This document shows positions 1,247-44,892 of a DNA stretch of 64,000 nt, in pieces. The notes below the pieces were generated by a model, which was not told the origin of the DNA, made no database searches, and worked only from the letters and a program-made list of their open reading frames with translations. Made by a program: the position numbers and the translations under genes. The DNA lies in contig SVOY01000006.1 of the NCBI GenBank assembly GCA_015066105.1, positions 1 to 64,000 on the forward strand, read 5' to 3'. How positions within the stretch are numbered: the stretch's first letter is position 1; every line of letters starts with the position of its first letter. The stretch comes from Oscillospiraceae bacterium. GTDB taxonomy: Bacteria; Bacillota; Clostridia; Oscillospirales; Acutalibacteraceae.

Positions 1247-1278
1247 AAATAGCGAAGCGTATGCTTCGCTATTTTTTT
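1247..1278. terminator. terminator hairpin immediately upstream of hairpin array 1
   Basis: AATAGCGAAGC pairs with GCTTCGCTATT across a four-base loop and is followed by seven T. It could serve the gene ending at 1197. The hairpin array begins three bases after the T-tract. Confidence 0.75.
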
Positions 1279-1280
1279 AT

Positions 1281-1460
1281 CCAAGCCGACAGGCTTGGTA
1301 TATCATCACGCTTAAGCGAGTATATCATCGCCGAAGGTGTATATCATCACACGAAGTGTGTATTTCTGTCGGCTTGATGATATACAAAACTTCGTTTTGA
1401 TGATATGCAATTTCTATGAAATTGATGATATACAAATCCTTCGGATTTGATAATATTTTT
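1281..1460 (+). repeat. Variable hairpin array 1
   Basis: Seven short perfect or near-perfect hairpins follow one another. They include CCAAGCC-GAC-AGGCTTGG, CACACGAAGTGTG, AAAACTTCGTTTT, AATTTCTATGAAATT and AAATCCTTCGGATTT. They are joined by constant linkers: TATATCATC in the left half and its reverse complement GATGATATA in the right half. The switch occurs at a central CTGTCGGCTT, itself the reverse complement of the AAGCCGACAG at the left end. The linkers can therefore pair across the array and present the small hairpins as side arms. Left end, centre and right-hand linker match array 4 (44165-44370), while the hairpin bodies differ. No coding function is evident. Confidence 0.85.
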
Positions 1461-1597
1461 AATAGTTTGCTTTTCGTTACATTTTTATGTTTCACATAGA
1501 TTTCAAATTTCTGAAGCTGTGTTTCCACAGACGAAACGCGAGCTGTTAACTGGTTCATCGTGCCCCGCGTCCGGTGGACGATGAAGGGGTGCGATGA

Positions 1598-1775
1598 ACA
1601 GGAAGAAATAGGGAGAGTTGCAAGCGCTCCAAGCGAAGCAAATCGACCATATTTCTGACCGACACTCACTTACCGTTGCAGAGCTGTTGCTGGCGGACGA
1701 ACAGGAAAAAACAAGGAGTATCACGAAGCGCTCCAAGCGAAATAGCGCGACTATGTTTTTGACCGAGGTGTCACA
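1598..1775. repeat. Degenerate repeat cluster (three related segments, also at 15-95)
   Basis: The segment with GAACAGGAAAAAACAAGG, GCGCTCCAAGCGAA and ATAGCGCGACTATG occurs at about 18-95 and again at 1698-1775. A more diverged version lies at 1604-1655. The two better copies share a 3' edge, GTGTCACAGGT, which in the first copy runs into the tRNA fragment. The overlapping open frames do not resemble a known protein to me. I read these as decayed ends of an integrated element. Confidence 0.5.
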
Positions 1776-1913
1776 GGTGAATAATTATCAAAATCAAAGA
1801 TTTTGCCAGCTCCACAATAAGCGCCTTTTTTGTAGTAAGTTAAGTTGTAAAGGCAATATGATTGATTTTTAAATTTTTTTATGATAGTATTTTGTCATAA
1901 AAGGAGTGATTAT

Positions 1914-2189
1914 ATGAAAATTCCTGTGTCCTACTACAAAAAATCCAGTAATGAGCTCTATTGGAATGATGGCACACTGTACATCAAAAACTCAAAGATT
2001 ATTTTGAAAAATTTGTTTAAAACAGTCGCAGTGTTTGATGCTTATATGGTTAAATTTATAACTTTAACTGATGAGCTTTTTTATAAAGCTACAGAAATTT
2101 CTGATAATAAAAAAAGCTACATATTGCTTTTTGATAAATTGAACTACAAAAAATTATGCGAATTTGCGGATATTTTACCAAATCCTTGA
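1914..2189 (+). CDS. Small hypothetical protein
   Basis: 91 residues starting MKIPVSYYKK. The ATG at 1914 is chosen over the upstream one at 1881 because AAAGGAG lies eight bases before it. The product is Lys/Tyr/Phe-rich, has no signal peptide or membrane segment, and looks like a small mixed alpha/beta domain. I do not recognise the family. The gene is AT-rich like the rest of the left edge and ends exactly where the promoter of the methyltransferase leader begins. Confidence 0.6.
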   Translation: MKIPVSYYKKSSNELYWNDGTLYIKNSKIILKNLFKTVAVFDAYMVKFITLTDELFYKATEISDNKKSYILLFDKLNYKKLCEFADILPNP

Positions 2190-2215
2190 CATCATATATT
2201 TTTATGCTATAATAA
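2187..2215 (+). promoter_or_regulatory. Consensus promoter of the methyltransferase leader
   Basis: A perfect TTGACA is followed after about 16 bp by TATAAT. It overlaps the stop codon of the preceding ORF. The start point would lie about 20 bases ahead of the leader ORF. Confidence 0.8.
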
Positions 2216-2241
2216 TCCAAACCAACAACGGAGGAATCATT

Positions 2242-2277
2242 ATGTTCTTTATCACTATTCGACGCAGACGAAGATAG
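2242..2277 (+). CDS. Arginine-rich leader peptide (11 residues)
   Basis: ATG 2242 to TAG 2277 encodes MFFITIRRRRR, preceded by a good GGAGG site. Five successive Arg codons (CGA, CGC, AGA, CGA, AGA) before the stop are a natural ribosome-stalling site. Arg-X-Arg motifs are known macrolide-dependent stalling signals in leaders such as ErmDL, so drug- or arginine-sensing is plausible. The coding sequence itself can pair with a downstream segment to form a terminator (see 2244-2353), which supports an attenuation role. Confidence 0.7.
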   Translation: MFFITIRRRRR

Positions 2278-2353
2278 CTTGTATCTGAAATTAGGGTACA
2301 GGCTTAAGTTGCTGTGTGCCCGATGAAGTGATGAAGAACTTTATTTTTTTGCA
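2244..2353 (+). promoter_or_regulatory. Leader-ORF-dependent attenuator (long-range terminator)
   Basis: Leader-ORF bases 2244-2261 (GTTCTTTATCACTATTCG) pair with 2322-2340, whose 3' half is GTGATGAAGAAC and which leads into TTTATTTTTTT. An inner hairpin (GGGTACA/TGTGCCC, 2295-2321) lies between the arms. A ribosome stalled on the Arg codons would cover the 5' arm and prevent the terminator, allowing transcription into the methyltransferase. This is read from the sequence; the inducer is unknown. Confidence 0.65.
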
Positions 2354-2356
2354 TTA

Positions 2357-2396
2357 CTGTTGACGGCATACGGCTGTTGACAGTATTTTTATTTTA
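2357..2396 (+). terminator. Second terminator-like hairpin before the methyltransferase
   Basis: Bases 2357-2385 form a 12-bp stem including G-U pairs (ACTGTTGACGGC with GGCTGTTGACAGT, loop ATACG), followed by ATTTTTATTTT. It sits just ahead of the GGAGG site of the next gene and is either a second attenuation step or the partner of an antiterminator. Confidence 0.6.
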
Positions 2397-2410
2397 CGGA
2401 GGTTATTTAA

Positions 2411-3157
2411 ATGAACAAAACAGATTATACATTATTAAATAAAGCAATATTTGAAAAAATCACACTGCCTGAAAATGCCGTTATTGCGGATTTGGGCTGT
2501 AAGGATGCAACATTTCTTCTGGCTTTTCAAGAGGCCTTTCCGAACAAAATCAAGTCAGCCATAGGTGTGGATATAACCGATAGACGGTTTAAGGATGTTA
2601 AATATAAAAATCCTATTAAGCTTAAGGTTATGGACTGTTCAAAAAAATTAAATTTTGAAGATGATACTTTTGACCTTGTTTTTTCAAAGGATATGTTTGA
2701 ATGTGTGTCGGATAAGAATTTTTTGGTCAGTGAGATTCACCGTATTTTAAAGCCGGGCGGAGCTGTAATTTGCGTAAACTGTGATTGGGACAGCGTTGCT
2801 TATAACGGTGAAGACAAGGAGCTGATTTCAAAGGCGGTTCATGCTTATGCTGTAACAAAGCAACCTTGGATGGATGACCTTGACAGCTGGATTGGCAGAA
2901 GAATGTACGGATTTTTTAACAAAACGGGCTTATTTGAAAGTGAGGTAAGCATTTGCAATATTGTTGAAACCGAGTATAAAGAGGGTAGCTTCGGTTATGA
3001 GCTGAGTAAGGATATTGCTTGGCTTTATAAAGAGAATACGGGAGCAATCAGCGAAAACGAATACGCGGAATTTATTGAAAATCTGAAGCTTGCCGACAAA
3101 AACGGCCGGTATATTTTTTCAAAGCCCTACTATGTTTACAAAGGCATAAAAAAGTAA
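2411..3157 (+). CDS. Class I SAM-dependent methyltransferase
   Basis: 248 residues with a Rossmann-type SAM fold. Motif I is VIADLGCKDA (24-33), the acidic ribose-binding residue lies in GVDI (52-55), motif IV-like DLVFSKDMFE is near 88, and LKPGG is near 114, typical of Methyltransf_11 enzymes. The substrate cannot be assigned. It has no zinc finger like RlmA and no Erm signature. The elaborate leader (promoter, Arg-rich peptide, two terminator hairpins) resembles that of inducible antibiotic-resistance genes, so a ribosome- or drug-directed methylase is an attractive but unproven idea. The ATG at 2411 follows ACGGAGG. A terminator hairpin follows the stop codon. Confidence 0.8.
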   Translation: MNKTDYTLLNKAIFEKITLPENAVIADLGCKDATFLLAFQEAFPNKIKSAIGVDITDRRFKDVKYKNPIKLKVMDCSKKLNFEDDTFDLVFSKDMFECVSDKNFLVSEIHRILKPGGAVICVNCDWDSVAYNGEDKELISKAVHAYAVTKQPWMDDLDSWIGRRMYGFFNKTGLFESEVSICNIVETEYKEGSFGYELSKDIAWLYKENTGAISENEYAEFIENLKLADKNGRYIFSKPYYVYKGIKK

Positions 3158-3164
3158 AAGAATA

Positions 3165-3198
3165 CCCCTGAAGCATTACTAAAATGTTTCAGGGGGTT
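3165..3198. terminator. Bidirectional terminator between convergent genes
   Basis: CCCCTGAA...TTCAGGGG stem lying between the methyltransferase (plus) and the esterase (minus). Confidence 0.75.
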
Positions 3199-3201
3199 AT
3201 C

Positions 3202-4518
3202 TTACTCTCCCACCGGCTTGTTAGTCAGTGTGGTTTTGATAAGCTTTGCCATATCAACCTTGCCCTGCAGGATATGGTCGTTACCGAAGCGCATTACGGT
3301 TTTGGCGTCCTTGCATTTGTCCCATCTGACGAGTCCCTCGCCGTTAGGGTCACCGTTTTTTACAAAATTGCAAAGGTAGGTGCTCATAACGTCACTGAGG
3401 AAAAAGTCGTGCTTTTCCATAGGCCGCCAGCAGTTTTTGAGGGTGCCGAACCAGTACCAGAGGTCACTGCTGTGCCAGGCTCCCTTGTCGTCACCGGGGA
3501 GCATTCTTTCAAAGTGCCACAGATAGGCACCGTTTTTCTCTGCCCATTTTTTTGTCATCGGATGAAGGACCGCGGGGGCCATATCGTGGCTTGTTGAGCC
3601 GACCATATAGGGGATTTTGTGAGGCTTCGCATCATACTTTATGAGCATACCGTCCTTTACGGGGACGGCTGACATACCCGAGCCCTTTGTGCCTTTCCAC
3701 GCCTTGAAAAGAGCCTCGGGTGAAGCCCTGCGCAGCTCATCGAGATTTTTTGCGTTTGCGTTTTTCATTACCTCTTCCCAGAAGGTGTATTTCTTTTCGG
3801 GGGTTGAGGTCATAAAGGAGCCGAGAGCAACGCCGCTTGACATAACCGCAGAGCGGAAGAGCCCTTTTGTAAGCTCACTCTGACAAAGGTGCTGAACGCT
3901 CATTGCGCCTGCGCTCTGACCCATTATTGTTATTTTTTCGCTGTCGCCGCCAAAGGCAGAGATGTTGCTTTTTACCCACTCTATTGCGGTCAGCTGGTCA
4001 TAAAGGCCGTAGTTGCCCGTGTGGCCGGCCTCTTTTTTTAATTCGGGCAGGCAGGCAAAGCCCATAGGCCCGAGACGGTAGTTGATTGTTACACATACAA
4101 CGCCCTTTTTTGCCCATACGGGGCCGTCAAAGTGCTTTTCGTGGCCGCAGCCGCCGGTAAATCCTCCGCCGTGAATGTAGATGAGAACGGGCAATTTGCT
4201 CGTTTCTGTGGCGTCGGCAGGGGTGCGGATGTTGAGGAAAAGGCAGTCCTCGCTGTAGGTGTAGCTTTCTCCCTTGCGGAATTCATTGTAATAGAAAATC
4301 TTACCGGGGTTTTCCTCTTCGTCGTAAAAGGCGCGGGGCTGATATGAGCAGCTGCCGTAGGCTGTTGCATCGTAAACTCCGTTCCAGCCCGTTACGGCAA
4401 CGGGGTATTCCCATCTGCCGGCAGTTGCATAGCGGATACCCTTGTAGTCCGTAACGCCCTCTTCTGACGAGGTTACGCCCTTTATATCTCCGCAGGGGGT
4501 AGTGATAGTTTTAAACAT
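3202..4518 (-). CDS. Carboxylesterase type B
   Basis: 438-residue alpha/beta hydrolase of the carboxylesterase/para-nitrobenzyl esterase family. Visible marks are EDCLFLN (90-96), the oxyanion-hole HGGGF (116-120), the nucleophile elbow GQSAGA with Ser202, and the AWHSSDLWY segment with the probable catalytic His349. It is somewhat shorter than the usual 480-550 residues, and I see no signal peptide, so it probably acts in the cytoplasm. The start has AGAAGGAG upstream. It follows a GPH symporter by two bases, so the pair is probably co-transcribed and may take up and deacylate a glycoside or plant ester. The substrate is inferred only from context. Confidence 0.85.
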   Translation of the reverse strand: MFKTITTPCGDIKGVTSSEEGVTDYKGIRYATAGRWEYPVAVTGWNGVYDATAYGSCSYQPRAFYDEEENPGKIFYYNEFRKGESYTYSEDCLFLNIRTPADATETSKLPVLIYIHGGGFTGGCGHEKHFDGPVWAKKGVVCVTINYRLGPMGFACLPELKKEAGHTGNYGLYDQLTAIEWVKSNISAFGGDSEKITIMGQSAGAMSVQHLCQSELTKGLFRSAVMSSGVALGSFMTSTPEKKYTFWEEVMKNANAKNLDELRRASPEALFKAWKGTKGSGMSAVPVKDGMLIKYDAKPHKIPYMVGSTSHDMAPAVLHPMTKKWAEKNGAYLWHFERMLPGDDKGAWHSSDLWYWFGTLKNCWRPMEKHDFFLSDVMSTYLCNFVKNGDPNGEGLVRWDKCKDAKTVMRFGNDHILQGKVDMAKLIKTTLTNKPVGE

Positions 4519-4520
4519 AA

Positions 4521-5921
4521 TTACTGCTCCTTCTGAGCCTTTTTGAATTCGTCAATCTTCTGCCTTGTTTCGGGGCTCATATTCCAGAGAAATTTGAAGG
4601 CTGCCCAGGAGCCGAGCACGAAAATACCGGGCAGAAGCACTGCGATAATCTTGATGCCCGAAACCGTTGTTGCCGACTGTACTGCAAGGTCTGCGTTGTA
4701 GCCGGTCCAGCCGAGCATAAGCACGGTTGCCGAGTTACCGATTGTCTGACCCACACGGCGTGAAAGATTGAAGGTGCCGTAAATTGAGCCTTCGGTTCTT
4801 TTGCCGGTAAGCATTTCGTTGTAGTCAATAGCCTCGCTGACAAGACCCCACTGCATATAAATGGATACGCTTGCAAGACCCATTGCACAGTTGCTTATTA
4901 TCATATGCACATAGGGGTTGACATCCGTAACCATATGAAGACCGAAAAGACCTATGTACATAACCGCACCAATAAGCAGGCCGAAGCGGATGAACTTTTC
5001 AAGGCCGAACTTTTTAGCAAAATAGGGGCCGCCCAAAAGTGTTACCATCATAAAGGGCGCGGAAACTATTGAGCCGTAGGTAACAAGCTTGAGGTCGTCG
5101 TAAACGGCTGAGAACATATAGTTTGTAATTGTGTTGTTTACATACTGCATTGTGCAGATGCAAAGGCCGTGTATGCAAAGAGCGAGGAAGGGTCTGTTGA
5201 CACGGAAAACATTGAGAATATCCGTAACCTTTATGCTCTGCTGCTCTGCTTCCGGCTGTGCGGTGACATTTCTTTCCTCGGTGAATGCGTAGTGGCCAAG
5301 GCACATTGCAAAGCCTATAAGGGCACAGATAATTGCACCTAAGGCATAGCCCTTTGAATTTGTCTGACCGTATTTGTCAATAAGCATGGGCATAAGCACA
5401 ACGGGAATGGCATTACCAACGGCTGAGCCGAAGCCTCTTGCAGAGGAGAGGGTGGCTCTTTCCTTGTCATCGTCTGCCATAGCTGAGAGAAGTGAGCCCA
5501 TGGGAATGTTGAACATTGTATATGCGCCCTCGTAAAGTATCTTAAGGCCGAAAAGAACGCAGATAAGTGAAAGGCCTTCAAAAAGTGAGGGTACCGACCA
5601 CAGGGCGATAAAGCTTACGCAGATAAGCGGTGAGCTTCGGAGAAGCCAGGGACGGAATTTACCCTTGGGATTATGCTTTTTGGAAAAAGCCTTATCCATA
5701 AAAGCGCCCATCAGAGGGTCGTTGATGAAATCCCACACATTCCAGATTGCAAGCAGTACGGCAAGCAGCTCCGTGTCGATTTTAAGGGCATCGGTACAGT
5801 ACATTGCAAAGGTACTGCCCATAATTGCAAAGGTCATACAGCCGCCCGCATCGCCGAGACCGTAGCCGATTTTATGCTTGAGGGTGAGGGATGATTTGCT
5901 CTTTTTTGCTGTTTCGTTCAT
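4521..5921 (-). CDS. GPH-family sugar:cation symporter (MFS, MelB-like)
   Basis: 466 residues with about 12 hydrophobic segments. The N-terminal signature KIGYGLGDAGG and the D-x-x-N-D-P segment (WDFINDPLMG, where MelB has its cation-binding Asp cluster) place it in the glycoside-pentoside-hexuronide family. The cytoplasmic loop KHNPKGKFRPWLL is also typical. It precedes the esterase in the same direction with a two-base gap and lies 29 bp after the SDR gene. The substrate is unknown. It is one of three GPH symporters in this window, with those at 45808 and 61592. Confidence 0.88.
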   Translation of the reverse strand: MNETAKKSKSSLTLKHKIGYGLGDAGGCMTFAIMGSTFAMYCTDALKIDTELLAVLLAIWNVWDFINDPLMGAFMDKAFSKKHNPKGKFRPWLLRSSPLICVSFIALWSVPSLFEGLSLICVLFGLKILYEGAYTMFNIPMGSLLSAMADDDKERATLSSARGFGSAVGNAIPVVLMPMLIDKYGQTNSKGYALGAIICALIGFAMCLGHYAFTEERNVTAQPEAEQQSIKVTDILNVFRVNRPFLALCIHGLCICTMQYVNNTITNYMFSAVYDDLKLVTYGSIVSAPFMMVTLLGGPYFAKKFGLEKFIRFGLLIGAVMYIGLFGLHMVTDVNPYVHMIISNCAMGLASVSIYMQWGLVSEAIDYNEMLTGKRTEGSIYGTFNLSRRVGQTIGNSATVLMLGWTGYNADLAVQSATTVSGIKIIAVLLPGIFVLGSWAAFKFLWNMSPETRQKIDEFKKAQKEQ

Positions 5922-5950
5922 TTCGTTTTCTCCTTTTTTTATTTGCTTTT

Positions 5951-6688
5951 TTATATTCCGAGTCCGCCGTCAATGCCGATTGTCTGACCCGTTATAAAAC
6001 CTGATTTTTCACCCGCAAGGAAGGAAACAAGCTCTGCCACATCCTCGGGACTGCCCGTGCGGCAAAGGGGTGTTTCTTCAACAACGCCCCGTACCGCTTC
6101 TTCGTCAAAGCGGGCGTTCATTGCAGTTTCAATAAAGCCGGGGGCAATGCAGTTTACCCTTATACCGCTTGCGCCTGCTTCCTTTGCAAGTGCCCTTGTA
6201 AAGCCGATAAGCCCGGCCTTTGAAGCGCTGTAATGTACCTCGCAGGAGCCGCCGACAACGCCCCATACAGATGAAATGTTGATTATACTGCCGCTTTTTT
6301 TGTTTATCATCAGCGGCAGAAGCTCGGCTGTAAGCGACATTGCATTTGCAAGGTTTACATTAAGCAGCCTTCTTACGCTTTCACTGTCAAGGCACTGAAA
6401 AACGCCGACGAGTGAAAGCCCCGCATTGTTGACTAAAACATCAACCCCGTTTGTTACGCTTTTTATTTTTTCACCGAGCAGCCGTCCGCCCTCGTCGGCA
6501 GAAAGGTCTTCGCCGAGGATAAATACCTCTGTGCCGTAGGTGTTTTTTAGCTGCAGGGCTGTTTTTTCTGCTTCAGCCTTGTTTTTGTTGTAGTGGAGAA
6601 TTATATTGTAGCCGTCACGGGCGAGGGCGTAGCATATGGCCTTGCCTATTCCGCCCGAGGCACCTGTAATTACTGCTGTTTTTTTCAC
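5951..6688 (-). CDS. Short-chain dehydrogenase/reductase (FabG-like)
   Basis: 245-residue classical SDR. It has the nucleotide-binding TGASGGIG (8-15), NNAG (87-90) and a catalytic Ser140-Tyr153-Lys157 triad (YSASK), ending in the usual GQTIGIDGGLGI tail. NADPH-dependent 3-oxoacyl reductase-like activity is typical of close families, but the substrate is not determined by sequence. It starts nine bases after the end of mnmE and is probably in the same transcript. Unlike the broken SDR at 26315-27110, all catalytic residues are present. Confidence 0.85.
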   Translation of the reverse strand: MKKTAVITGASGGIGKAICYALARDGYNIILHYNKNKAEAEKTALQLKNTYGTEVFILGEDLSADEGGRLLGEKIKSVTNGVDVLVNNAGLSLVGVFQCLDSESVRRLLNVNLANAMSLTAELLPLMINKKSGSIINISSVWGVVGGSCEVHYSASKAGLIGFTRALAKEAGASGIRVNCIAPGFIETAMNARFDEEAVRGVVEETPLCRTGSPEDVAELVSFLAGEKSGFITGQTIGIDGGLGI

Positions 6689-6697
6689 ATCATCACC

Positions 6698-35320: not shown

Positions 35321-35475
35321 TTGCGCGAAGCGCAACATCATTGGGTGTAAGCCCACACCGTTGATGCGAAGCATCACATCATTTGTGCAAAGCACAACAT
35401 TGTTCATTTGTGTCCGCAAGCGGACAATGATGTATTCGCTACGCTCATAATGATGTTGTGTCCTGTGGACATAAA
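35321..35475 (-). repeat. Variable hairpin array 3
   Basis: Read on the minus strand it starts right after the terminator at 35509-35480. Hairpins include TGTCC-ACA-GGACA, TGTCCGCTTGCGGACA, TTGTGCTTTGCACAA, TGATGCTTCGCATCA, TGTGGGCTTACACCCA and TTGCGCTTCGCGCAA. The linkers are CATCAT-type in the first half and ATGATG-type in the second, so the array is again mirror-symmetric in its linkers. The linker sequence differs from arrays 1 and 4 (no TATA part). It lies downstream of the displaced tRNA-Arg 3' half, i.e. originally downstream of the intact tRNA gene. Confidence 0.8.
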
Positions 35476-35479
35476 TGAA

Positions 35480-35509
35480 AAAATCCAAGTCGAAAGACTT
35501 GGATTTTTT
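35480..35509 (-). terminator. Original tRNA-Arg terminator, displaced by the island
   Basis: AAATCCAAGT/ACTTGGATTT stem with T-tract on the minus strand, immediately after the tRNA 3' half in the repeat at 35504-35552. Confidence 0.75.
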
Positions 35510-35552
35510 GGCACCCCCTGCGGGAATCGAACCCACAACTAACCCTTAGGAG
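35504..35552 (-). other. attachment-site repeat (displaced tRNA-Arg 3' half)
   Basis: 49 bases identical to 38402-38450. It covers the 3' half of tRNA-Arg from the anticodon region to CCA plus a few terminator bases. The true tRNA remains complete at the other end, so this is the copy pushed away by integration. Confidence 0.88.
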
Positions 35553-35734
35553 TTTGCCCGAAAGGGTGTTATTATGTTCACTTTTCGTCACTTAAAAAAC
35601 CTCATAAACCCTTATTTTACTAGGGTTAGCGAGTGTTAACAGAGTCATTCTTGGTTTTTCTGATAATTAGCAGAATATTAGCGAGTGGGCGACAAACAGG
35701 TGAATGATAAATTATTGTCGCTCGCCTGTATTAT

Positions 35735-36454
35735 TCACTTTTTTGATTTTTTTATAATAGCTGATAAAATATCTCGAACGCCTACTTCATATTCATTAAA
35801 ATCGGCTATGTTGGATTCTTTTAACCACAATTGGCCCTCGCCAATATTTCCTCTGTGTTGACCAGCCGAATAATATTTATTATTCGTTACTTCATCACTA
35901 GAAAGAACCCAATATCTAATCTTATCTCTCCATACGGCAATCCATACAAATACATCGCAACAAGCAGGTTTTATTTGTTGGAAATTCATATCAAAACCTG
36001 ATGTGGAATCACTGGAAAGAGCTTTCAAAATTAGTGAATCTCCGCTTTTTCTTTTAACGGCACGTGAAGCTTTTACCTCTATCTTTATACCTTCATACCA
36101 AAAATCATATTCACCAGAATATGATGAATCTAAAAGAGTAGAAGGCGTTTTCAATTCAGGAACAACCTCATTAAGATGTCTTTGAGCCCATGTTTCACCG
36201 AAGGTTCTAGGTGCAGTTATTTCAAAAACATAAAGATACTTGTTTCTTTCTATATATGATGTACGAATGTTTAAATATTCACTTAAGGATATTGTCTTCG
36301 TTGCAATTAAGTGACTTATTACATATTCGAATTTATTGAATGGATATACTGAATATAAATCATCTAAACACTCATCTGCCAAATCGATGCTTCCATTTGT
36401 TTTTTCTTTCATCTGTGATATTTTGATTTTCAAATCGTCAATTAAACGTTCCAT
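35735..36454 (-). CDS. Probable type II restriction endonuclease (PD-(D/E)XK)
   Basis: 239 residues. The segment SGEYDFWYEGIKIEVKASRA contains Asp117 and the E126-V-K128 pair, the D...ExK arrangement of PD-(D/E)XK nucleases. The protein has no membrane segment and no similarity I can name beyond this. Its gene overlaps the end of the methyltransferase gene by 17 bp and is transcribed after it, which lets the host become methylated before cutting begins. The recognition sequence cannot be read from the sequence. Confidence 0.7.
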   Translation of the reverse strand: MERLIDDLKIKISQMKEKTNGSIDLADECLDDLYSVYPFNKFEYVISHLIATKTISLSEYLNIRTSYIERNKYLYVFEITAPRTFGETWAQRHLNEVVPELKTPSTLLDSSYSGEYDFWYEGIKIEVKASRAVKRKSGDSLILKALSSDSTSGFDMNFQQIKPACCDVFVWIAVWRDKIRYWVLSSDEVTNNKYYSAGQHRGNIGEGQLWLKESNIADFNEYEVGVRDILSAIIKKSKK

Positions 36455-38165
36455 TTAATTTCTCCTTAATGTGTTTTCTTTGAGTTTTATTTATTTCAAA
36501 TATGTCGTATATTATATCTTGAACATTGCTATGGCCAGAATAATCACCTGCTATGATTCTATCCACATAAAAAGATATTTCTTCATTTTTTTCAGATGAA
36601 ATTTTAGCAAAAGGAAGCTCAAGCAAATTCCCTTTGAGTATTTTTATTTCTGAAAACAAAACCAAATATAAGTATTGGTAAAGTTCAGAATTCAAAAAAG
36701 CCATTACGGTTTTAATCGACATATTAGGTATTTTAGGAATTAGAATGTTGGCACTATTTAAAAACAAAGATTGATTATTATCATATGCAAACACTAACTT
36801 ATTTGATATAAATTTGTATACTAGTTTTTCTTCTGCTCTATAAATTTCTTCTTTCGCTACTTGCTGAAACTCATTCCTATTATATTCAATGTGTTTTACA
36901 GGTTTTTTTAAAACATATGGCAAAATTTCTTTTCCAGTATAGATTGCTTCACTCGTTTTGCTGTTTTCAATCAATAATTTTTCTTTGTTATTACCAGTAA
37001 CAACACCCAATGCCCATATACTGTTTTTTAGTGTGTATGCGCCTTTTTGTTTTACTTGGCTTATTATTTCAGAGTCTGTGTCGTCTTGAAAATTAAAAAC
37101 CCGGTTTTCTGTGTTATAAAAATTTTTTCGATCAATGCAAAATAAACTTTCAGCTGAATAAATGTTTATTTTTTCTGTTGGATTGTTTTTTGATGCTTCT
37201 ATATCTATATATTTGGTAGTTACTCCTGAAAACATTCCAGTATACAGAGTTATCGAATCTAAGCTACCATGTGACAATATAAACTCTCTTATATCTCTAT
37301 GTGCTTTAACATTCAATATTGATTCAGGAAAAAGGAATCTAATACATCCTTTTTCTTTCAATAAACCAAAAGCTTTTACATAAAAACACGAAAAAGACTC
37401 TTTCGATGTTATTTCAAAAATTGAATTGTTTACACAAACGGCCCCCCATGGTGGATTTGTTATAATATATTCGAATTGTTCATGGAAAATTGGTATATTC
37501 ATATTGAATATATCGTCTTGTAAAAAATCACCGCAATAAATTTGAGGAATAAAAACCTCTTCACTATACTTAAGCAATAAATTGATTTTACATATAAAAA
37601 CAGCTAAAAAATCATTATCCATACCATATATTTGGCTTGGATTGCCTTGAGCTGATAACAAAAACGAACCACTTCCACAACAAGGATCTAAAAGTTTTTG
37701 TTCATTTTCAAGAAAAACGCAAGACATCATATTTTGAACAACTTTTTTTGGAGTATAATATGAGCCTTTTTGGTTTTTTTCACCTTCTAAAGACAAGCTT
37801 TGATAAACAACTCCCAGTAGATCTCTCTCGTCTGTTGGAATCTGTATGTTGTATAAAAAATCGTCAATTTTATATTCGTATTCAGAAAGGACTTTTTGCA
37901 CGTGAGGTAATTGATATATATTAGCTTGAATTAATTGCTTTACCGCAATTGTATACAATGCCGAATAAGTATCAATTCCATTATTAAAAATAGCATTAAC
38001 AATATCAGTTATTATTTGTATGTTTTTTCGATTTTCGATATATTCCAAAGGAAAAAAATGCTTTTGTGACATTTGTTTGTTTGCTCGCTTTGTAAGCTTT
38101 TTAGAAATATCCACGTGCAATCTTTCCCAATTTCTTGCAGTAGCAATAGAAACATTTGCGTTCAT
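36438..38165 (-). CDS. N6-adenine DNA methyltransferase (type II R-M)
   Basis: 575 residues. The N-terminal 45 residues look like a DNA-binding helix-turn-helix (SIATARNWERLH). YYTP (136-139), SAM motif I DPCCGSGSF (160-168), the acidic GMDND (181-185) and the catalytic NPPW (237-240) follow. The C-terminal 300 residues resemble a target-recognition domain of TaqI/Eco57I-like gamma-class enzymes. It methylates adenine and protects DNA from the nuclease encoded next. The coding sequence is far more AT-rich than the core genes. AGGTG precedes the ATG, and a promoter is at 38196-38224. Confidence 0.9.
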   Translation of the reverse strand: MNANVSIATARNWERLHVDISKKLTKRANKQMSQKHFFPLEYIENRKNIQIITDIVNAIFNNGIDTYSALYTIAVKQLIQANIYQLPHVQKVLSEYEYKIDDFLYNIQIPTDERDLLGVVYQSLSLEGEKNQKGSYYTPKKVVQNMMSCVFLENEQKLLDPCCGSGSFLLSAQGNPSQIYGMDNDFLAVFICKINLLLKYSEEVFIPQIYCGDFLQDDIFNMNIPIFHEQFEYIITNPPWGAVCVNNSIFEITSKESFSCFYVKAFGLLKEKGCIRFLFPESILNVKAHRDIREFILSHGSLDSITLYTGMFSGVTTKYIDIEASKNNPTEKINIYSAESLFCIDRKNFYNTENRVFNFQDDTDSEIISQVKQKGAYTLKNSIWALGVVTGNNKEKLLIENSKTSEAIYTGKEILPYVLKKPVKHIEYNRNEFQQVAKEEIYRAEEKLVYKFISNKLVFAYDNNQSLFLNSANILIPKIPNMSIKTVMAFLNSELYQYLYLVLFSEIKILKGNLLELPFAKISSEKNEEISFYVDRIIAGDYSGHSNVQDIIYDIFEINKTQRKHIKEKLNGTFN

Positions 38166-38195
38166 TTTTTCACCTCACATTACCTATTTATCTGT

Positions 38196-38224
38196 ATTAT
38201 ATCATAATATGTTATAATCTTCAA
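38196..38224 (-). promoter_or_regulatory. Promoter of the R-M operon
   Basis: On the minus strand TTGAAG (38224-38219), 17-bp spacer, TATAAT (38201-38196). Confidence 0.7.
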
Positions 38225-38330
38225 GCAAATATAAAATCATTATCAAAACATATCACACAAGTACAGTTCGTCATTTTATTAGCAGAGTATATTTTTTAGC
38301 TTGTTCCAAGAAAATAAAAGAGCCGGAAAA

Positions 38331-38374
38331 ATCAATGCGAAGCATTGCATATCACCAAGCCTGTCGACTTGGAT
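38331..38374 (-). repeat. Miniature hairpin array (two hairpins)
   Basis: On the minus strand, right after the tRNA-Arg terminator, CCAAGTCGACAGGCTTGG is followed by linker TGATATGC and the hairpin AATGCTTCGCATT. This is the left-end hairpin and right-half linker of arrays 1 and 4 with everything between missing. It sits inside the R-M island, so it arrived with it. Confidence 0.75.
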
Positions 38375-38376
38375 AG

Positions 38377-38406
38377 AAAAAGACGAAGCAGTTGCTTCGT
38401 CTTTTT
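38377..38406 (-). terminator. tRNA-Arg terminator
   Basis: AAAGACGAAGCA/TGCTTCGTCTTT stem with T-tract on the minus strand directly after the CCA end. Confidence 0.8.
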
Positions 38407-38450
38407 TGGCACCCCCTGCGGGAATCGAACCCACAACTAACCCTTAGGAG
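38402..38450 (-). other. attachment-site repeat inside tRNA-Arg
   Basis: 49 bases identical to 35504-35552. The repeats diverge exactly in the anticodon stem (GGAGGGG here, GGAGTTT there), placing the crossover in the 3' half of the tRNA. Confidence 0.88.
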
Positions 38451-38481
38451 GGGTTTATTATATCCATTTAACTAAGGAGGC
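38407..38481 (-). tRNA. tRNA-Arg(CCU)
   Basis: 75 nt with encoded CCA. The anticodon stem AACCC/GGGUU encloses loop CUCCUAA, giving anticodon CCU. The acceptor GCCUCCU pairs with AGGGGGU allowing G-U pairs, and the T-loop is UUCGAUU. A consensus promoter lies at 38502-38530. The 3' half is also repeated at 35504-35552, so this gene is the integration site of the R-M island. Confidence 0.93.
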
Positions 38482-38501
38482 GTATTGATTTTTGCTTACA
38501 T

Positions 38502-38530
38502 ATTTTATCATCCTTTTTTGCACTTGTCAA
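38502..38530 (-). promoter_or_regulatory. Promoter of tRNA-Arg
   Basis: Minus strand: TTGACA (38530-38525), 17 bp, TAAAAT (38507-38502), about 20 bp upstream of the mature tRNA 5' end. Confidence 0.75.
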
Positions 38531-38631
38531 CTCGTTTTAGTCCATATAATTCCTTATACATTATAATATTATTAAAATTTTTACATATTTTATGCCGTAT
38601 TGCAACAGTTTGCAGAGCCGATATATTGACT

Positions 38632-38889
38632 TTGACATTTATAAATGTTAAAATTTATTCTATGTGTAATTTACAATAGGGCATTGTGCGATGCTTTGCG
38701 CCCGGGATAAAATACACAAATAAAATGAGAGGTTGTGAAGCCTATAAGTCCTGAAAACTGCAGAGAAAATGAAAGAAAGCATTCCGGAGACAGAAAACAT
38801 TATTTAAAAATTTTATTCAACTGAATCAGTTTAACTGTTTATATATTATCAAATCATAAACTATCCGCAATACGGAGGAAAAAACAAAA
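38632..38889 (+). promoter_or_regulatory. Promoter and long leader of the acyl-CoA synthetase operon
   Basis: TTGACA at 38632 and TATTCT at 38656 (18-bp spacing) give a leader of about 220 nt. It contains a GC-rich hairpin GGGC...GCGCCC at 38680-38704, a nine-codon ORF (ATGAGAGGTTGT...TGA) without a good ribosome binding site, and an AT-rich stretch. No known riboswitch is recognised. Confidence 0.4.
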
Positions 38890-40593: not shown

Positions 40594-41795
40594 ATATTAC
40601 GGAAAGACTTAAGGTAAGAAGAGGTTATCACTTCAACTGCTTTGCAACAAAGACTATTTTTGCAATACTCAAAAACAAGGTTATCAAGGAGAACAATGTT
40701 CATCTTGATTATCATAAGCCCAAGGCAAAAAGCTTTATTCTTATCTCAAACCATACCGACGCTATGGACCCGGGCTTTGAAATGGTTGCCCTTGACAGAT
40801 ACATAAGATACGTTGCAAGTGACCATACCGCAAGAATGAAGCTCGGCTGGGTGTTCAAATATGTCGGAGGCGTTATTATCAAGTACAGAGACCGCCCCTC
40901 CTCGGAGCTTACAAACGAAATTATCCGCAATGTGCAGGCAGGAATTCCCGTGGGTCTTCACGCCGAGGGCGCAATGAGCGTCAACGGTCAGACCGGCTTC
41001 ATCTCCTCAAATACGGGCAAGCTCGTAAAGGATTCCGGTGTTGCACTTGTTACCTACAGATTTGTAGGCGGTTATCTCAGAAAGCCCCGCTGGGCAAACG
41101 AAAAAAGAAGCGGCCCCATTGTCGGCCACTTTGTGAATGAATATTCTGCAGAAGAGCTCAGTAAGCTCTCCGTTGATGAAATCAACGAAATTATCCGCCG
41201 CGACACCTATGTCAACGCTTACGCTGAGCAGAGAAAGGAAATGCACGACTATGAGGGTGAAAACCTTGCAGAGTGCGTTGAAAGAATTCTTTACCTCTGC
41301 CCCAAATGCGGCAAGGTGGGCACACTCCACAGCAAGGGCAACTTCCTGGGCTGTGACTGCGGATACAAGGTTGAGATGAAAAAGGACGGCTTCTTCCACG
41401 ATTGCGGCGAGGGCCTTGAGCACGACAACGTGCTTGACTGGGACCTCTGGCAGAGAGATATCTGGAAGGAAAGAGTGCTTTCAGCCGAAAAGGGTAGCCT
41501 CATCTTCTCAGAGGGCGGCCAGAAGGTTAAGCGGGTTGACGGCGAAAACGAGGAAGTTCTTTCTGAAAATGCAACAATCAGCCTTTATCCCGAAAGGTTT
41601 ACCGTAAGCCTTGACGGCTCAAAGGAAGATATTGTAATGGAAATGCCGAAAATCAAGCAGCTTTCCCTTGCAGGTAAGGATACTATTCTTGTTGTTGATG
41701 ATAAGATTTTCCTTGATATAGGAAGCGAAATCCCCCGTTCATCAACAAAATACATTGCCGCGTGGAGATATCTCACGGGCAAGGAATACAAGTAA
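40590..41795 (+). CDS. PlsC-like 1-acylglycerol-phosphate acyltransferase with zinc ribbon
   Basis: 401 residues starting with GTG at 40590, overlapping the stop of the synthetase gene and preceded by AAGGAGG. The acyltransferase motif N54-H-TDAM-D60 (HX4D) is present, and motif III-like GLHAEGAMS carries a Glu. After the acyltransferase domain there is an unusual C-terminal extension with a zinc ribbon, CPKCGKVG...GCDCG (about 235-256), and a beta-rich tail (about 300-401). Typical PlsC proteins are about 240 residues. The extension may bind a partner or the membrane surface. Confidence 0.82.
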   Translation: MNITERLKVRRGYHFNCFATKTIFAILKNKVIKENNVHLDYHKPKAKSFILISNHTDAMDPGFEMVALDRYIRYVASDHTARMKLGWVFKYVGGVIIKYRDRPSSELTNEIIRNVQAGIPVGLHAEGAMSVNGQTGFISSNTGKLVKDSGVALVTYRFVGGYLRKPRWANEKRSGPIVGHFVNEYSAEELSKLSVDEINEIIRRDTYVNAYAEQRKEMHDYEGENLAECVERILYLCPKCGKVGTLHSKGNFLGCDCGYKVEMKKDGFFHDCGEGLEHDNVLDWDLWQRDIWKERVLSAEKGSLIFSEGGQKVKRVDGENEEVLSENATISLYPERFTVSLDGSKEDIVMEMPKIKQLSLAGKDTILVVDDKIFLDIGSEIPRSSTKYIAAWRYLTGKEYK

Positions 41796-41837
41796 GAAAC
41801 AAATAAATTTGCCCTTTGTGAAAGGCAAAGCAAAAAA

Positions 41838-41876
41838 GGAGCTGTAAAAAACGAAGGTTTTTTTACAGCCCCTTTT
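41838..41876 (+). terminator. Terminator of the lipid operon
   Basis: GGAGCTGTAAAAAA/TTTTTTTACAGCCCC stem followed by T-rich sequence, between convergent genes. Confidence 0.75.
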
Positions 41877-41893
41877 TCTATATTTTTTTCAGC

Positions 41894-42919
41894 TTACTGT
41901 CCGCTTACCATATTCATAAGCCATGAGATGTCCCACTTGGCATAGCCGGCGGGAATTTCAAAAATGCTTTCGTCAAATTCTGCGGTGATTTCCTGGAATT
42001 CCGTTGTGGAAACCTCGCCCGAGGGGCTGATGGAATCGCTTCTTACAAGCTGGTCACCCTTGAAGTAATACTTGGTGAGGTTGCCGTTTTCGTCTGTAAA
42101 GCTTTCACATTCATAAACCTCGCCGTTCAGGGTTTCGGTGCTTTTGGCGTATACCGTTGTGCCGTCGCCCTTGGCAATATCCTTGGTAAGCTCTTCAACG
42201 TTCATATCGCCTATCATATCTGAGGATATGGGAGAATACTTTTTGAATTTGTCAATCAGAATGAACCAGGTGCCCTGCTGAGGGTTGTCCTCGTCGGGCT
42301 TGTCGCCGTCGTAAAGCATTTTGAGTGAAAGACCCTCCATGGAGGCCTCAATGAACATTTTGTTTCCGCTCATTGCCATTGTTACGGGGCCGAGGTCGGG
42401 GTCGTTGACCTTCATAAGGAATTTGCCGCCCTTGAAAATGTTCTGATAAACGTCAATCTTGTTTGCCTGCTGAATCTGCTGAGGATTGGTGGGAGCGAGT
42501 GTGCTCTGCTGAACATCGCCGCCGTTTTGCTGATTCTGTGAAGGCTGAATGTTCTGTGAGGTGCCCTGCTGAACATCGGAGCCGCCGTTGGGAGCAGTTG
42601 TATCCGTACCGCCCTGAGAGGGAGCCGTGCTCTGTGTGCCTGAGGGCTGCTGAACGGAGGAGCCGTTATCGGTGCTCTGCTGAACGCCGCCGTCTGAGGT
42701 TGACTGTGTGCCATCCTGATTTGTTGTTGCGTCAGCGTTTACGGTTGAGTCTGAGCCTGAGGGAGCCGTGGAGCCCGTGTCTGAGCCTGTTGTGCTCGTC
42801 TGCGAGGTTGAGGGGTCGGGCGTAACGGTGGGGTCATCGCCCGTAAGGGAGAAGACCGCAACGCCTATTGCAATTACAACTACAACGGCTATTACTATTT
42901 TTTTGATAATATCCTTCAT
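41894..42919 (-). CDS. Membrane-anchored extracellular protein with S/T/Q-rich linker
   Basis: 341 residues. One N-terminal helix (about 7-25) precedes a low-complexity linker (about 28-155) rich in Ser, Thr, Gln, Gly and Asp, with repeated QQST/VQQ/TAPS units. The C-terminal domain (about 155-340) is beta-rich (KFLMKVNDPDLGPVTMAMSG, TEFQEITAEFDESIFEIPAGY) and resembles the LolA/LppX-like lipoprotein fold in its alternation. That resemblance is weak. There is no lipobox and no sortase signal. It probably sits on the cell surface; the function is unknown. Confidence 0.7.
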   Translation of the reverse strand: MKDIIKKIVIAVVVVIAIGVAVFSLTGDDPTVTPDPSTSQTSTTGSDTGSTAPSGSDSTVNADATTNQDGTQSTSDGGVQQSTDNGSSVQQPSGTQSTAPSQGGTDTTAPNGGSDVQQGTSQNIQPSQNQQNGGDVQQSTLAPTNPQQIQQANKIDVYQNIFKGGKFLMKVNDPDLGPVTMAMSGNKMFIEASMEGLSLKMLYDGDKPDEDNPQQGTWFILIDKFKKYSPISSDMIGDMNVEELTKDIAKGDGTTVYAKSTETLNGEVYECESFTDENGNLTKYYFKGDQLVRSDSISPSGEVSTTEFQEITAEFDESIFEIPAGYAKWDISWLMNMVSGQ

Positions 42920-43074
42920 TGAAGAAAATACCTCCTTGAACTGTACTTCATTCTTATTACTGATAAAATATTACAATAAATTGTTTTTTAAAATCAAGTA
43001 AAAGCTGTTAAACTTGTGTTAACTGACTTTTTGTACTGCGTTAAAGTTAACCTTTGTGTTAATAAATTTAAAAC

Positions 43075-43884
43075 TCAGAGCTTTTTTGCAATTTCGATAA
43101 AAGCATCTGTATCGCAAAGCTCAACGGCACCCTTGTCTGCAAGGGCGGGTGTTCTTGTGTCAATGGGGAGCTTTGCAAGCACGGGGAGATTATACTCTGC
43201 GGCAATTTCGTCAATTCTGCTTTCGCCGAAGATGCTGTGCTTTTTGCCGCAGTCGGGACATTCAAAGTAGCTCATATTTTCAATGAGACCAACTATGGGA
43301 ATGTTCATCATATTAGCCATATTGATAGCCTTTTTAACAATGAGACCTACAAGGTCCTGAGGGGTTGCAACAACAATTATGCCGTCAACCTTGAGCTGCT
43401 GGAAAACGGTGAGGGGAACATCGCCTGTTCCGGGAGGCATATCGACGAACATATAGTCAACATCACCCCAGGCAACATCGGTGAAGAACTGCTGAATAAC
43501 GCCGCTGATAACGGGACCTCTCCACACAACGGGTGAAGCCTCGTCGGGGAGGAGAAGATTGACACTCATTACGCGGATACCCGTGCTTGTTTCCTTGGGA
43601 AGGAGACCGGAGGCATCAGCCTCAGCTCTGCCCTTTATGCCGAACATTTTGGGAATTGAGGGGCCGGTTACGTCGGCATCAAGCACTGCAACCTGCTTGC
43701 CGAGGGACTGAGTTGCCGTTGCAAGCATTGCGGTAACGCTTGATTTGCCTACGCCGCCCTTACCGCTTACTACGGCATAGATTTTTTTGATGTTACTGTA
43801 TTCGTTCTGCTTAAGGTGCATATCCTTATCCTTGCAACCCTCAGCTGAGGAGCAGGAGGAGCAATTACCTGAACATGAGCTCAT
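43075..43884 (-). CDS. mrp: Mrp/NBP35-family Fe-S cluster carrier ATPase
   Basis: 269 residues. A Cys-rich N-terminus (SSCSGNCSSCSSAEGC) as in Nbp35 precedes the deviant Walker A GKGGVGKSS (41-49) and DADVTGPSIPKMFG. The C-terminal CPDC (in YFECPDCGKKH) is the bridging-cluster CxxC. These P-loop ATPases assemble and transfer 4Fe-4S clusters. The gene stands alone with a TTGACA-17-TATTAT promoter (43947-43975). Confidence 0.93.
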   Translation of the reverse strand: MSSCSGNCSSCSSAEGCKDKDMHLKQNEYSNIKKIYAVVSGKGGVGKSSVTAMLATATQSLGKQVAVLDADVTGPSIPKMFGIKGRAEADASGLLPKETSTGIRVMSVNLLLPDEASPVVWRGPVISGVIQQFFTDVAWGDVDYMFVDMPPGTGDVPLTVFQQLKVDGIIVVATPQDLVGLIVKKAINMANMMNIPIVGLIENMSYFECPDCGKKHSIFGESRIDEIAAEYNLPVLAKLPIDTRTPALADKGAVELCDTDAFIEIAKKL

Positions 43885-43946
43885 TTAAAACACGCCTTTC
43901 TGATATTTATATTACAACATAATCTTATTATAACAGATTAACTTAT

Positions 43947-43975
43947 ATAATAATACAAATTTGAAGATATGTCAA
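43947..43975 (-). promoter_or_regulatory. Promoter of mrp
   Basis: Minus strand: TTGACA (43975-43970), 17 bp, TATTAT (43952-43947). Confidence 0.7.
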
Positions 43976-43994
43976 ATCTTTGAGACGATTTTTC

Positions 43995-44023
43995 TTGACA
44001 AATCCGTTAAGTTTTGGTAGAAT
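43995..44023 (+). promoter_or_regulatory. Promoter of tRNA-Ser
   Basis: TTGACA (43995-44000), 17 bp, TAGAAT (44018-44023), about 15 bp before the mature tRNA. Confidence 0.8.
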
Positions 44024-44038
44024 GGCAAATGCAAACAG

Positions 44039-44126
44039 GGAGAGTTGTCCGAGTGGTCGAAGGTGCAGCACTCGAAATGCTGTGTGGGGAAACTCACCCA
44101 GGGTTCGAATCCCTGACTCTCCGCCA
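44039..44126 (+). tRNA. tRNA-Ser(CGA)
   Basis: 88 nt with a long variable arm and encoded CCA. The acceptor GGAGAGU pairs with ACUCUCC, followed by discriminator G. The anticodon stem CAGCA/UGCUG encloses loop CUCGAAA, giving anticodon CGA. A terminator follows immediately, and hairpin array 4 begins three bases after its T-tract. Confidence 0.95.
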
Positions 44127-44161
44127 AAAAATCCGACAAGTTTCGACTTGTCGGATTTTTT
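44127..44161 (+). terminator. tRNA-Ser terminator
   Basis: ATCCGACAAG/CTTGTCGGAT stem with six-base loop and T-tract. Confidence 0.88.
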
Positions 44162-44164
44162 TAT

Positions 44165-44370
44165 CCAAGCCGACAGGCTTGGTATATCATCAGCCCGACA
44201 GGGCTGTATATCATTGAATGTATATCTCGCCTTTGGCGAGGTATACATTCGTATATCATCACACCTTTAGGTGTGTATATCTGTCGGCTTGATGATATAC
44301 AACCTCTTGCGAGGTTGATGATATGCAATTCCTTGCGGAATTGATGATATACAAGGCTTCGCCTTGATTT
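44165..44370 (+). repeat. Variable hairpin array 4
   Basis: Starts TTATCCAAGCCGACAGGCTTGG like array 1. Hairpins in order are CCAAGCC-GAC-AGGCTTGG, AGCCC-GACA-GGGCT, a long one at 44215-44250 (GAATGTATA...TATACATTC with CTCGCC/GGCGAG), CACACCTTTAGGTGTG, then the centre CTGTCGGCTT, AACCTCTTGCGAGGTT, AATTCCTTGCGGAATT and AAGGCTTCGCCTT. Linkers are TATATCATC on the left and GATGATATAC/GATGATATGC on the right, mirror-symmetric. The four-helix-bundle gene starts 45 bp downstream. Confidence 0.88.
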
Positions 44371-44413
44371 TATTGCTAATTTGCAGTGTAATCTGTTAAA
44401 AGGAAGTGATGGT

Positions 44414-44754
44414 ATGCCTAAAAATTATTTGCTGATTTATGCTGAACAATTAGCAACCGATATTGAATTGCTTTGCCAAAATATAAAAGCTCCTTCAAAT
44501 ACACTGTTTCAAATTCGCAAAAGTTCAAGCAGTGTTTATGCAAATATCCGTGAAGCAAATTATGGACAGAGCAGGGCAGATATGCTTTCTAAATTTGAAA
44601 TCGCATTAAAAGAATGTAGTGAAACAGAAGGTTGGTTGCAACTTTTGTTTAATACAAAATCTATTACTGAAGCTACATACAAAAACAGCTGAAACTTTGC
44701 GGACGAATAAGAAGGATGTTAATTTCAAGTTGTAAAACTCTTAGAGATAAATAA
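44414..44754 (+). pseudogene. Four-helix-bundle protein, S23/IVP and Avd-like (frameshifted)
   Basis: ATG 44414 follows AAGGAAG. The uninterrupted frame gives 92 residues (MPKNYLLIYAEQLA...) and stops at 44692. The motif run IRKSSSSVYANIREAN and SKFEIALKECSETEGWLQLL is typical of the family first seen in 23S rRNA intervening sequences (TIGR02436), related to Avd of diversity-generating retroelements. The last helix is missing, but it is encoded in another frame: after the A5 run at 44681-44685, adding one A gives KKQLKLCGRIRRMLISSCK to a stop at 44752-44754, about 113 residues and the expected length. So it is frameshifted by mutation, by error, or by slippage on the A run. It lies between two hairpin arrays. 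Confidence 0.75.
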
Positions 44755-44771
44755 AAGGAGTGTTATATTTA

Positions 44772-44846
44772 ATGGACACAAAACGAAGTTGCCTTGCGGC
44801 AAATGAAGTGATGCCTTGCATCAATGAAGCTACGGCTTTGCCGTAA
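44772..44846 (+). CDS. Short ORF reading into hairpin array 5
   Basis: ATG 44772 after AAAGGAG (44754-44760), 24 residues beginning MDTKRSCLAANEV. The coding sequence consists mostly of hairpin and linker repeats. It could be chance, but a proper ribosome binding site sits right after the four-helix-bundle stop. Confidence 0.35.
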   Translation: MDTKRSCLAANEVMPCINEATALP

Positions 44847-44892
44847 ATGAAGTGGCTTTGCCAATGAAGTGTGCCTACGGCACGATGTATTG
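44778..44892 (+). repeat. Variable hairpin array 5
   Basis: Five hairpins: TTGCC-TTGC-GGCAA, GATGCCTTGCATC, TACGGCTTTGCCGTA, GGCTTTGCC and GTGCCTACGGCAC. They are separated by a constant linker AATGAAGT (AATGAAGC once). Unlike arrays 1, 3 and 4, the linker keeps one orientation, and there is no terminator at its left end. It follows the four-helix-bundle gene directly. Confidence 0.82.

Follow-up and report, generated by a model that had tools for sequence, protein, structure and literature searches.

The intervening-sequence protein S23/IVP (family PF05635) is encoded by intervening sequences (IVSs) that lie inside 23S rRNA genes and are removed from the transcript by RNase III. In the portion of PMC4990558 available to us the protein has no known function, the IVS ends are inverted and base-paired, and mobility of the IVS is offered as a hypothesis only. 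The accessible parts of three further sources record IVP in rRNA inserts of the candidate phyla radiation (CPR; PMC11270868), name it in a figure legend of a survey of clustered regularly interspaced short palindromic repeats (CRISPR; PMC10910872) and remark on a likeness between PF05635 and Avd (PMC10053308). Here we describe hairpin arrays in the first 64,000 nucleotides of contig SVOY01000006.1 from an Oscillospiraceae bacterium (assembly GCA_015066105.1, forward strand; hereafter the window). The hairpin arrays of gut bacteria appear to be part of a large group of mobile elements whose sole recurrent gene encodes a four-helix PF05635 protein. The PF05635 family and its rRNA elements are already known; no report joining PF05635 with hairpin arrays or tRNA targeting was found in a partial coverage of the literature.

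The arrays resemble several described systems in part. Like the 23S rRNA IVSs, some of them are accompanied by a PF05635 gene, and five classical PF05635 loci have inverted short-repeat ends comparable to the inverted, pairing ends of IVSs in the available text of PMC4990558. However, IVSs lie inside rRNA, whereas the arrays lie behind terminators, often those of tRNAs, and consist of hairpins between mirrored linkers, mostly without a gene. Repetitive extragenic palindromic (REP) sequences carry a conserved GTAG or CGTC tag next to a palindrome, according to the accessible part of PMC3733652. Together with bacterial interspersed mosaic elements (BIMEs), REP doublets forming hairpins (REPINs) and REP-associated tyrosine transposases (RAYTs), they share with the arrays a dispersed, extragenic and inverted arrangement of palindromes; the arrays differ in having no link to a Y1 transposase and in their long multi-hairpin units, a centre complementary to their first hairpin (H0) and a preference for tRNAs. 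Miniature inverted-repeat transposable elements (MITEs) are likewise short, mostly gene-less and dispersed, with gene-bearing relatives, but no known transposase is linked to the arrays, nor was a duplication of the target noticed. The array-linked protein has the fold of Avd from diversity-generating retroelements, although no reverse transcriptase is linked to the arrays.

Arrays and the linked four-helix gene

All five arrays reported in a first-pass annotation of this DNA are present in the window. They had been treated as one family but divide into two linker families. Arrays 1, 3 and 4 (family 1) carry TATATCATC and GATGATATA as left and right linkers, and arrays 2 and 5 (family 2) carry ACATCATT or ACTTCATT and AATGATGT or AATGAAGT. 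A complete family-1 array follows a terminator and consists of TCC, H0, TATATCATC linkers alternating with three hairpins, a centre, GATGATATA linkers alternating with three more hairpins, and GATT. Between 2 and 4 linkers were recognised per half in parsed family-1 arrays. Family 2 follows the identical plan with different linker words.

A PF05635 four-helix-bundle gene (44414..44692, + strand; Pfam E 4.8e-15) lies between arrays 4 and 5, shorter than its relatives through an early TGA inside the Pfam match. Both profile and fold place the array-linked protein among the S23/IVP/Avd four-helix bundles, its fold being that of Avd. At ≥80% identity the gene has copies in 8 of the 59 genomes surveyed; all 8 also contain arrays, and the coordinates place each copy directly behind one. 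The first open reading frames (ORFs) behind 79 arrays comprised 14 PF05635 genes, 8 genes in four pairs and 57 singletons; 7 of the 14 PF05635 cases stood directly behind tRNAs, of six specificities. Given such diverse first ORFs, integron gene cassettes, in which IntI recombines attC sites, were considered as a comparison.

Weaker relatives from a protein search were often accompanied, by eye, by hairpin arrays with other mirrored linkers. Hairpin runs were counted at the 77 of 99 loci in which tblastn with the window protein located the gene. Seventy of these came from the protein-match list, 40 of them hand-picked down a list of which only part was fetched, and 7 came from the 29 loci of the classical PF05635 set. 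Because the first, unmasked counts (upstream 41/77, either side 46/77, control 38/496) took in tRNA hairpins, the counts and the tree test described below were repeated with 166 tRNAs masked. Upstream runs of at least three hairpins were then seen at 37/77 loci compared to 20/496 control ORFs, and runs on either side at 42/77 compared to 36/496; with family 1 left out, 29/69 loci retained an upstream run. The detector scores hairpins, not linkers, and terminator hairpins stayed unmasked. Control ORFs were drawn from the window and from pattern-fetched loci; 109 ORFs of the latter were excluded because family-1 linkers flank them.

On a tree of 86 proteins, with 17 of 82 inner branches open, the masked hairpin label required 16 changes compared to 29 when shuffled, and none of 500 shuffles was as low; the unmasked label required 12. 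A repeated 7-mer was common to 20/32 protein pairs of at least 75% identity, 13/39 at 65-75%, 15/124 at 55-65% and 27/666 at lower identity, in a test that used unmasked labels.

Classical PF05635 genes were taken from the window's own genome and a phylum sample, the family being present in 25 of 119 genomes. In many of the loci inspected, these genes were surrounded by inverted arrays of short tandem units without hairpins. Five of these loci (L289, L293, L295, L298 and L305; L and G numbers are our identifiers for loci and genomes) have inverted short-repeat ends and apparently lie in 23S rRNA genes, a placement judged by eye from rRNA-like flanks; two of the five are copies in one genome. 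Of 62 four-helix loci, 51 had a usable ORF, and their flanks matched each other more strongly in inverted orientation than did the flanks of 338 controls (p 3e-6). This signal came mainly from the classical group (28 loci, median 18.5 compared to 12 in the controls) and was weak in the hairpin group (23 loci, median 13), in which the array is usually on one side of the gene.

Further hairpin-less cases were observed. In the window's own genome, PF05635 genes or fragments at L008, L009, L010 and L012 lie amid inverted short-repeat arrays with units such as GTGCAAA and GCAATTCGC. Plasmids of Nostoc, Treponema saccharophilum and Bernardetia (L398, L399, L400, L402) carry inverted short tandem arrays around genes annotated 'four helix bundle protein' (by eye). 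The arrays on the two Nostoc plasmids are presumably cyanobacterial short tandemly repeated repetitive (STRR) sequences. Their tandem units of about 7-8 nt lie in inverted order on either side of the annotated 'four helix bundle protein' (L398, L399), but have no hairpins; the link between STRR and protein is drawn from two loci read by eye.

Position behind terminators and tRNA genes

As first noted, four of the five window arrays begin at a terminator T-tract. The count of arrays after terminators bore this out more widely: of the 71 linker clusters in the similarity-fetched set, 61 had T5 or longer followed by TCC-H0 directly upstream, and 59 of those 61 had an upstream stem of 6 or more. 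The finding holds for that set only; closeness to a T-tract was built into the search pattern for the at least 118 pattern-fetched stretches. A same-strand tRNA ended within 80 nt of 91 of the 174 left ends that had 150 nt or more of sequence before them (33/67 in the similarity-fetched set and 58/107 in the pattern-fetched set). Several of the remaining left ends, including that of array 2, adjoin a bare tRNA 3' part. Because a tRNA lies within 80 nt at 91/174 left ends, the terminator preference is read as largely a tRNA preference.

The relatives of the linked gene gave a similar picture. A same-strand tRNA was present within 700 nt upstream at 31/69 of their loci compared to 1/119 controls (taken from the window, L280-L308 and L347-L354, and unmatched for gap length), and 5 of the 31 loci belonged to family 1. 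The terminator might be a fixed part of the element: recurrent terminator cores were found with arrays 12, 10 and 10 times and without an array at most once on the same strand, though at loci that had been selected for arrays. At the right end, TTGATT stood 15-19 nt ahead of a -10-like hexamer in 44/117 arrays, at exactly 17 nt in 42, compared to 15/438 shifted positions.

The tails preceding the arrays were also inspected by eye. Arrays with no tRNA ahead often have a common tail before them that ends in GCTGTAAACAC or near it (L060, L066, L075, L077, L081, L082 and L146); some other tails look like the T arm of a tRNA (GGTTCAAAATC in L064 and L097). By eye, a tRNA and a second copy of its 3' end enclose a different, GC-rich hairpin insert of about 150-190 bp in L002 (about 1716-1900) and also in L086, L128, L177, L211, L220 and L221.

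Different inserts at the same site

Comparison of orthologous loci with and without an array, suggested in the first-pass annotation, yielded different inserts and no empty site with conserved flank. G002 has a counterpart of the window's tRNA-Ser locus (81% over 1192 positions), but there the tRNA is followed by another terminator, a family-2 array and another gene. At a tRNA-Val site, species with the right flank fully or partly in common carry family 1 (G005, G007), family 2 (G002), the TATGTAATC family (G016) or hairpin-less inverted repeats (G003, G008, G014). The flanks of G014 and G005 are 91% identical. Three of the tRNA-Val copies have a near-same terminator and arrays of two H0 types, and the species with the 91%-identical flank has another terminator.

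Pairing within the arrays

The family-1 centre is complementary to H0, and the two covary. The comparison covered 165 arrays, 57 of them untypable on one or both sides, and 104 of the 108 in which both were typed to one of three forms agreed. The longest word common to H0 and the reversed centre averaged 9.3 across the 165 arrays, compared to 6.0 after permutation (200 permutations, largest value 6.5). By eye, this rule also holds in family 2 (L236), in L262 and in a third linker family, TATGTAATC/GATTACATA (L247).

In the families read, the right linker word is the exact or near reverse complement of the left word. The inversion of linkers at the midpoint, as first described, is seen in 93 strictly parsed arrays, with the reservation that the parser accepts left-then-right strings only; in a looser listing a right word comes first in one of 74 clusters (L102), through a stray match that lies outside the array. 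It had been proposed that the whole can fold into a long stem with small side hairpins. Array 1 does fold far better than shuffled sequence (RNA -67 compared to -36.6 kcal/mol for 200 shuffles, z -7.95; DNA z -8.20), but the lack of covariation between last left and first right linkers (p 0.09, in the wrong direction) speaks against a strict stem of paired linkers within family 1. Pairing of H0 with the centre is backed by covariation, unlike linker pairing across the element.

The two halves also differ in their loops. On the + strand, 35/95 distinct left-half hairpin modules had G.A or G..A loops and 2 had T.C; 37/68 distinct right-half modules had T.C or T..C and 1 had G.A. No module was common to left and right halves in the parsed family-1 arrays.

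Variation of the hairpins

The hairpin bodies had been described as perfect palindromes throughout, which is too strong: GCCGAAGGTG in array 1 holds a wobble. At least 4 pairs were present in 79% of left modules (n=141) and 99% of right modules (n=151), compared to 57% and 75% of chimeras built from two arrays. Mean pairs in natural modules and chimeras were 5.19 vs 4.29 and 5.38 vs 4.38.

Eight pairs of near-identical arrays were compared, none with more than three changed segments; the clean cases were exchanges of whole modules. One hairpin is replaced between the orthologous tRNA-Val arrays L065 and L078. The same two right-hand modules stand in swapped order in L184 compared to L123 and L191, the arrays being otherwise similar, and L060 and L146 have near-identical four-helix genes and one replaced right-hand hairpin (by eye). 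Small changes occur too, with 1-4 edits in 8 of 23 changed segments; the other 15 had 5 or more edits, several of them parsing artefacts in which a decayed linker was missed. Since whole modules swap between fixed linkers in the clean comparisons, no palindrome-preserving polymerase is required, and the hairpin-primed synthesis or reverse transcription once proposed is not needed. Exchange at identical linkers would explain why the palindromes change as units.

Distribution among genomes

BLAST gave 7 matches at 6 places in the window's own genome. There, a pattern of paired linkers gave 15 matches at five places and its reversed control 0. The pattern was found in 17 of 59 genomes (own genome included), which belong to 5 of 26 genera, and a single genome had as many as 16 matches. 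A scan of GTDB genomes returned at least 118 stretches. Eighty listed stretches came from assemblies titled Clostridia, Oscillospiraceae, Ruminococcus and similar, many named for animal gut samples.

No named element matching this architecture emerged from the searches made; the first-pass annotation likewise knew of none. In an Rfam scan of the window two tRNAs alone reached thresholds, with no rRNA family and no group II intron structure; in 20 array loci only tRNA and Gut-1 were found, with no rRNA family and no family matching the arrays. Gut-1 RNA (RF01706) lies near arrays in 4 of these 20 loci (L061, L100, L115, L116). Viral contigs gave 3 pattern matches, one of them a chance match (L395); the other two (L396, L397) are identical to each other, and in them an array follows a tRNA-Pro-like 3' part, probably at a prophage edge. 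A 17-kb phage-labelled record from human faeces (L401, MT835815.1) contains, by eye, a tRNA-like sequence, a terminator, a hairpin array and a four-helix gene in succession.

Arrays of the window

Array 1 (1280..1460, + strand) is complete and directly follows a terminator hairpin with A and T tracts (1244..1278, +). Its H0 occupies 1280-1298, left linkers start at 1299, 1321 and 1340, the centre is at 1366-1375 and right linkers run from 1376. Arrays 2 and 3 have minus-strand orientation. Array 2 (35321..35477; linkers ACATCATT/AATGATGT) is preceded by a terminator (35478..35508, -) and a copy of the 3' part of tRNA-Arg(CCT) (35509..35550, -) whose letters are identical to the intact 3' end. 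Array 3 (38329..38373) is internally deleted (H0, partial right linker, last hairpin) and lies behind a terminator (38377..38406, -) and tRNA-Arg(CCT) itself (38407..38481, -; ARAGORN).

Array 4 (44164..44369, +) is complete and follows tRNA-Ser(CGA) (44039..44126, +; ARAGORN) and a terminator (44127..44162, +). Its last bases, TTGATT (44364-44369), stand 17 nt before TGTAAT (44387-44392; by eye), which was not scored as a -10 hit in the promoter and first-ORF counts. Array 5 (44774..44895, +) has no terminator ahead and, compared with L236, is a family-2 array reduced to its centre and right half; its end TTGACT stands 17 nt before TAAAAT (44913-44918; by eye).

The minus-strand interval 35509-38481 forms a small island bounded by the intact tRNA-Arg(CCT) and the copy of its 3' part, with a terminator and an array at both tRNA ends. 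It encodes an N6 methylase with a TaqI-like specificity domain (36438-38165) and an additional ORF without Pfam match.

Discussion

Judged from the sequences compared, the arrays have one architecture, recur at many tRNA 3' flanks and are represented by different families at one orthologous site; the protein subfamilies are coupled to their own linker words, and classical PF05635 genes have a hairpin-less counterpart. The association of arrays with PF05635 and the targeting of tRNAs are likely. The arrays are probably noncoding portions of PF05635 mobile elements with a preference for tRNA 3' flanks, most of them being derivatives that lack the gene.

In the mechanism we propose, the array unit would be what moves. 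The four-helix protein, probably a pentamer, may bind the linkers or hairpins that belong to its own family, and an enzyme from the host or another element would insert the folded element immediately 3' of tRNA terminators. Movement by way of a folded strand is possible but doubtful. Hairpin diversity may arise partly from whole-module exchange, plausibly at identical linkers. In part of the copies the right-end TTGATT would occupy the -35 position of the next gene. That gene could thereby stay expressed, and genes downstream could be carried along with the array.

Several observations weigh against a mobile PF05635 element. No insertion in action was seen among the loci compared, no target-site duplication was noticed, and we know of no catalytic partner. 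The first ORF was another gene behind 65/79 arrays, and 35/77 four-helix loci had no run of three hairpins on either side with tRNAs masked. In the H0-centre test 57/165 arrays were untyped, 25 of them with H0 typed and the centre untyped. No empty site with a conserved right flank was found among the tRNA-Val sites compared; G006 and G011 have no array behind tRNA-Val, and their right flanks differ. Recombination at tRNA loci, without transposition, could be the route by which arrays spread.

Passive accumulation is an unlikely explanation. Arrays might land or arise anywhere, persist only where harmless between a terminator and a promoter, and spread by homologous recombination. Many copies do lie between a terminator and a -35, and the tRNA-Val gap takes different families as well as hairpin-less inserts. 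However, the excess of tRNAs (31/69 compared to 1/119) seems too strong for generic gaps, although the controls were not matched for gap length, and linker words track protein subfamilies.

A retroelement, in which array RNA is bound by the Avd-like protein, reverse transcribed and inserted, is quite unlikely. The Avd fold of the linked protein, the likeness pointed out in the accessible text of PMC10053308 and the strong RNA fold are consistent with it. However, RVT_1 was not found in the window's own genome (85% complete) or in the array-rich genomes G007 (96%) and G033 (98%), and it did not correlate with arrays across 59 genomes (5/17 array-positive compared to 8/42 others, p 0.49). The loop bias is, moreover, mirrored instead of uniform on one strand. 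Of the earlier interpretation, a dispersed, structure-conserving family behind terminators stands, but reverse transcription and group-II-like insertion are not supported.

Mobilisation of REP/BIME-like palindromes (REPINs) by a Y1 transposase (RAYT) is very unlikely. The hairpins are inverted and extragenic, and the mirrored loop bias looks as though each half were read on its own strand. However, Y1_Tnp was no commoner with arrays in the same 59 genomes (10/17 compared to 23/42, p 1.0), and no match to it was found in 7 array-positive genomes, the array-rich G007, G033 and G058 among them; the array units are also longer, and the linked gene is PF05635. Retro-mobility by a resident reverse transcriptase and REP-like mobility by a resident Y1 transposase were both rejected on these counts. 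Because neither enzyme correlates with the arrays, we favour an element of the four-helix protein that would be moved in trans. It is most unlikely that the arrays are immobile cis-regulatory or processing RNAs of the tRNA or downstream gene (an H0 hairpin switching with H0-centre pairing), which the H0-centre covariation, promoter overlap and strong fold would suit, but not the patchy presence among genomes, the different families at one site or the very different downstream genes (57/79 singletons).

For the intervening-sequence protein, mobile PF05635 elements of this kind would supply a testable substrate, the subfamily-specific linker arrays, and a target, the tRNA 3' flanks. Repeat-flanked PF05635 genes were found in several phyla. 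We tentatively suggest that PF05635/Avd-fold proteins may be the hallmark of a widespread mirror-ended class of mobile elements, with a tRNA-targeting hairpin branch and a hairpin-less branch that includes the 23S IVSs, moved as a folded single strand by an Avd-like pentamer together with a borrowed enzyme. Repeats that are now scattered and unexplained, namely hairpin arrays, short tandem arrays and rRNA inserts, then become one question, that of how a folded element spreads by means of an Avd-like bundle without a linked catalytic gene. If true, the combination of folded single strand, Avd-like pentamer and borrowed enzyme would be a route of transposition not yet described.

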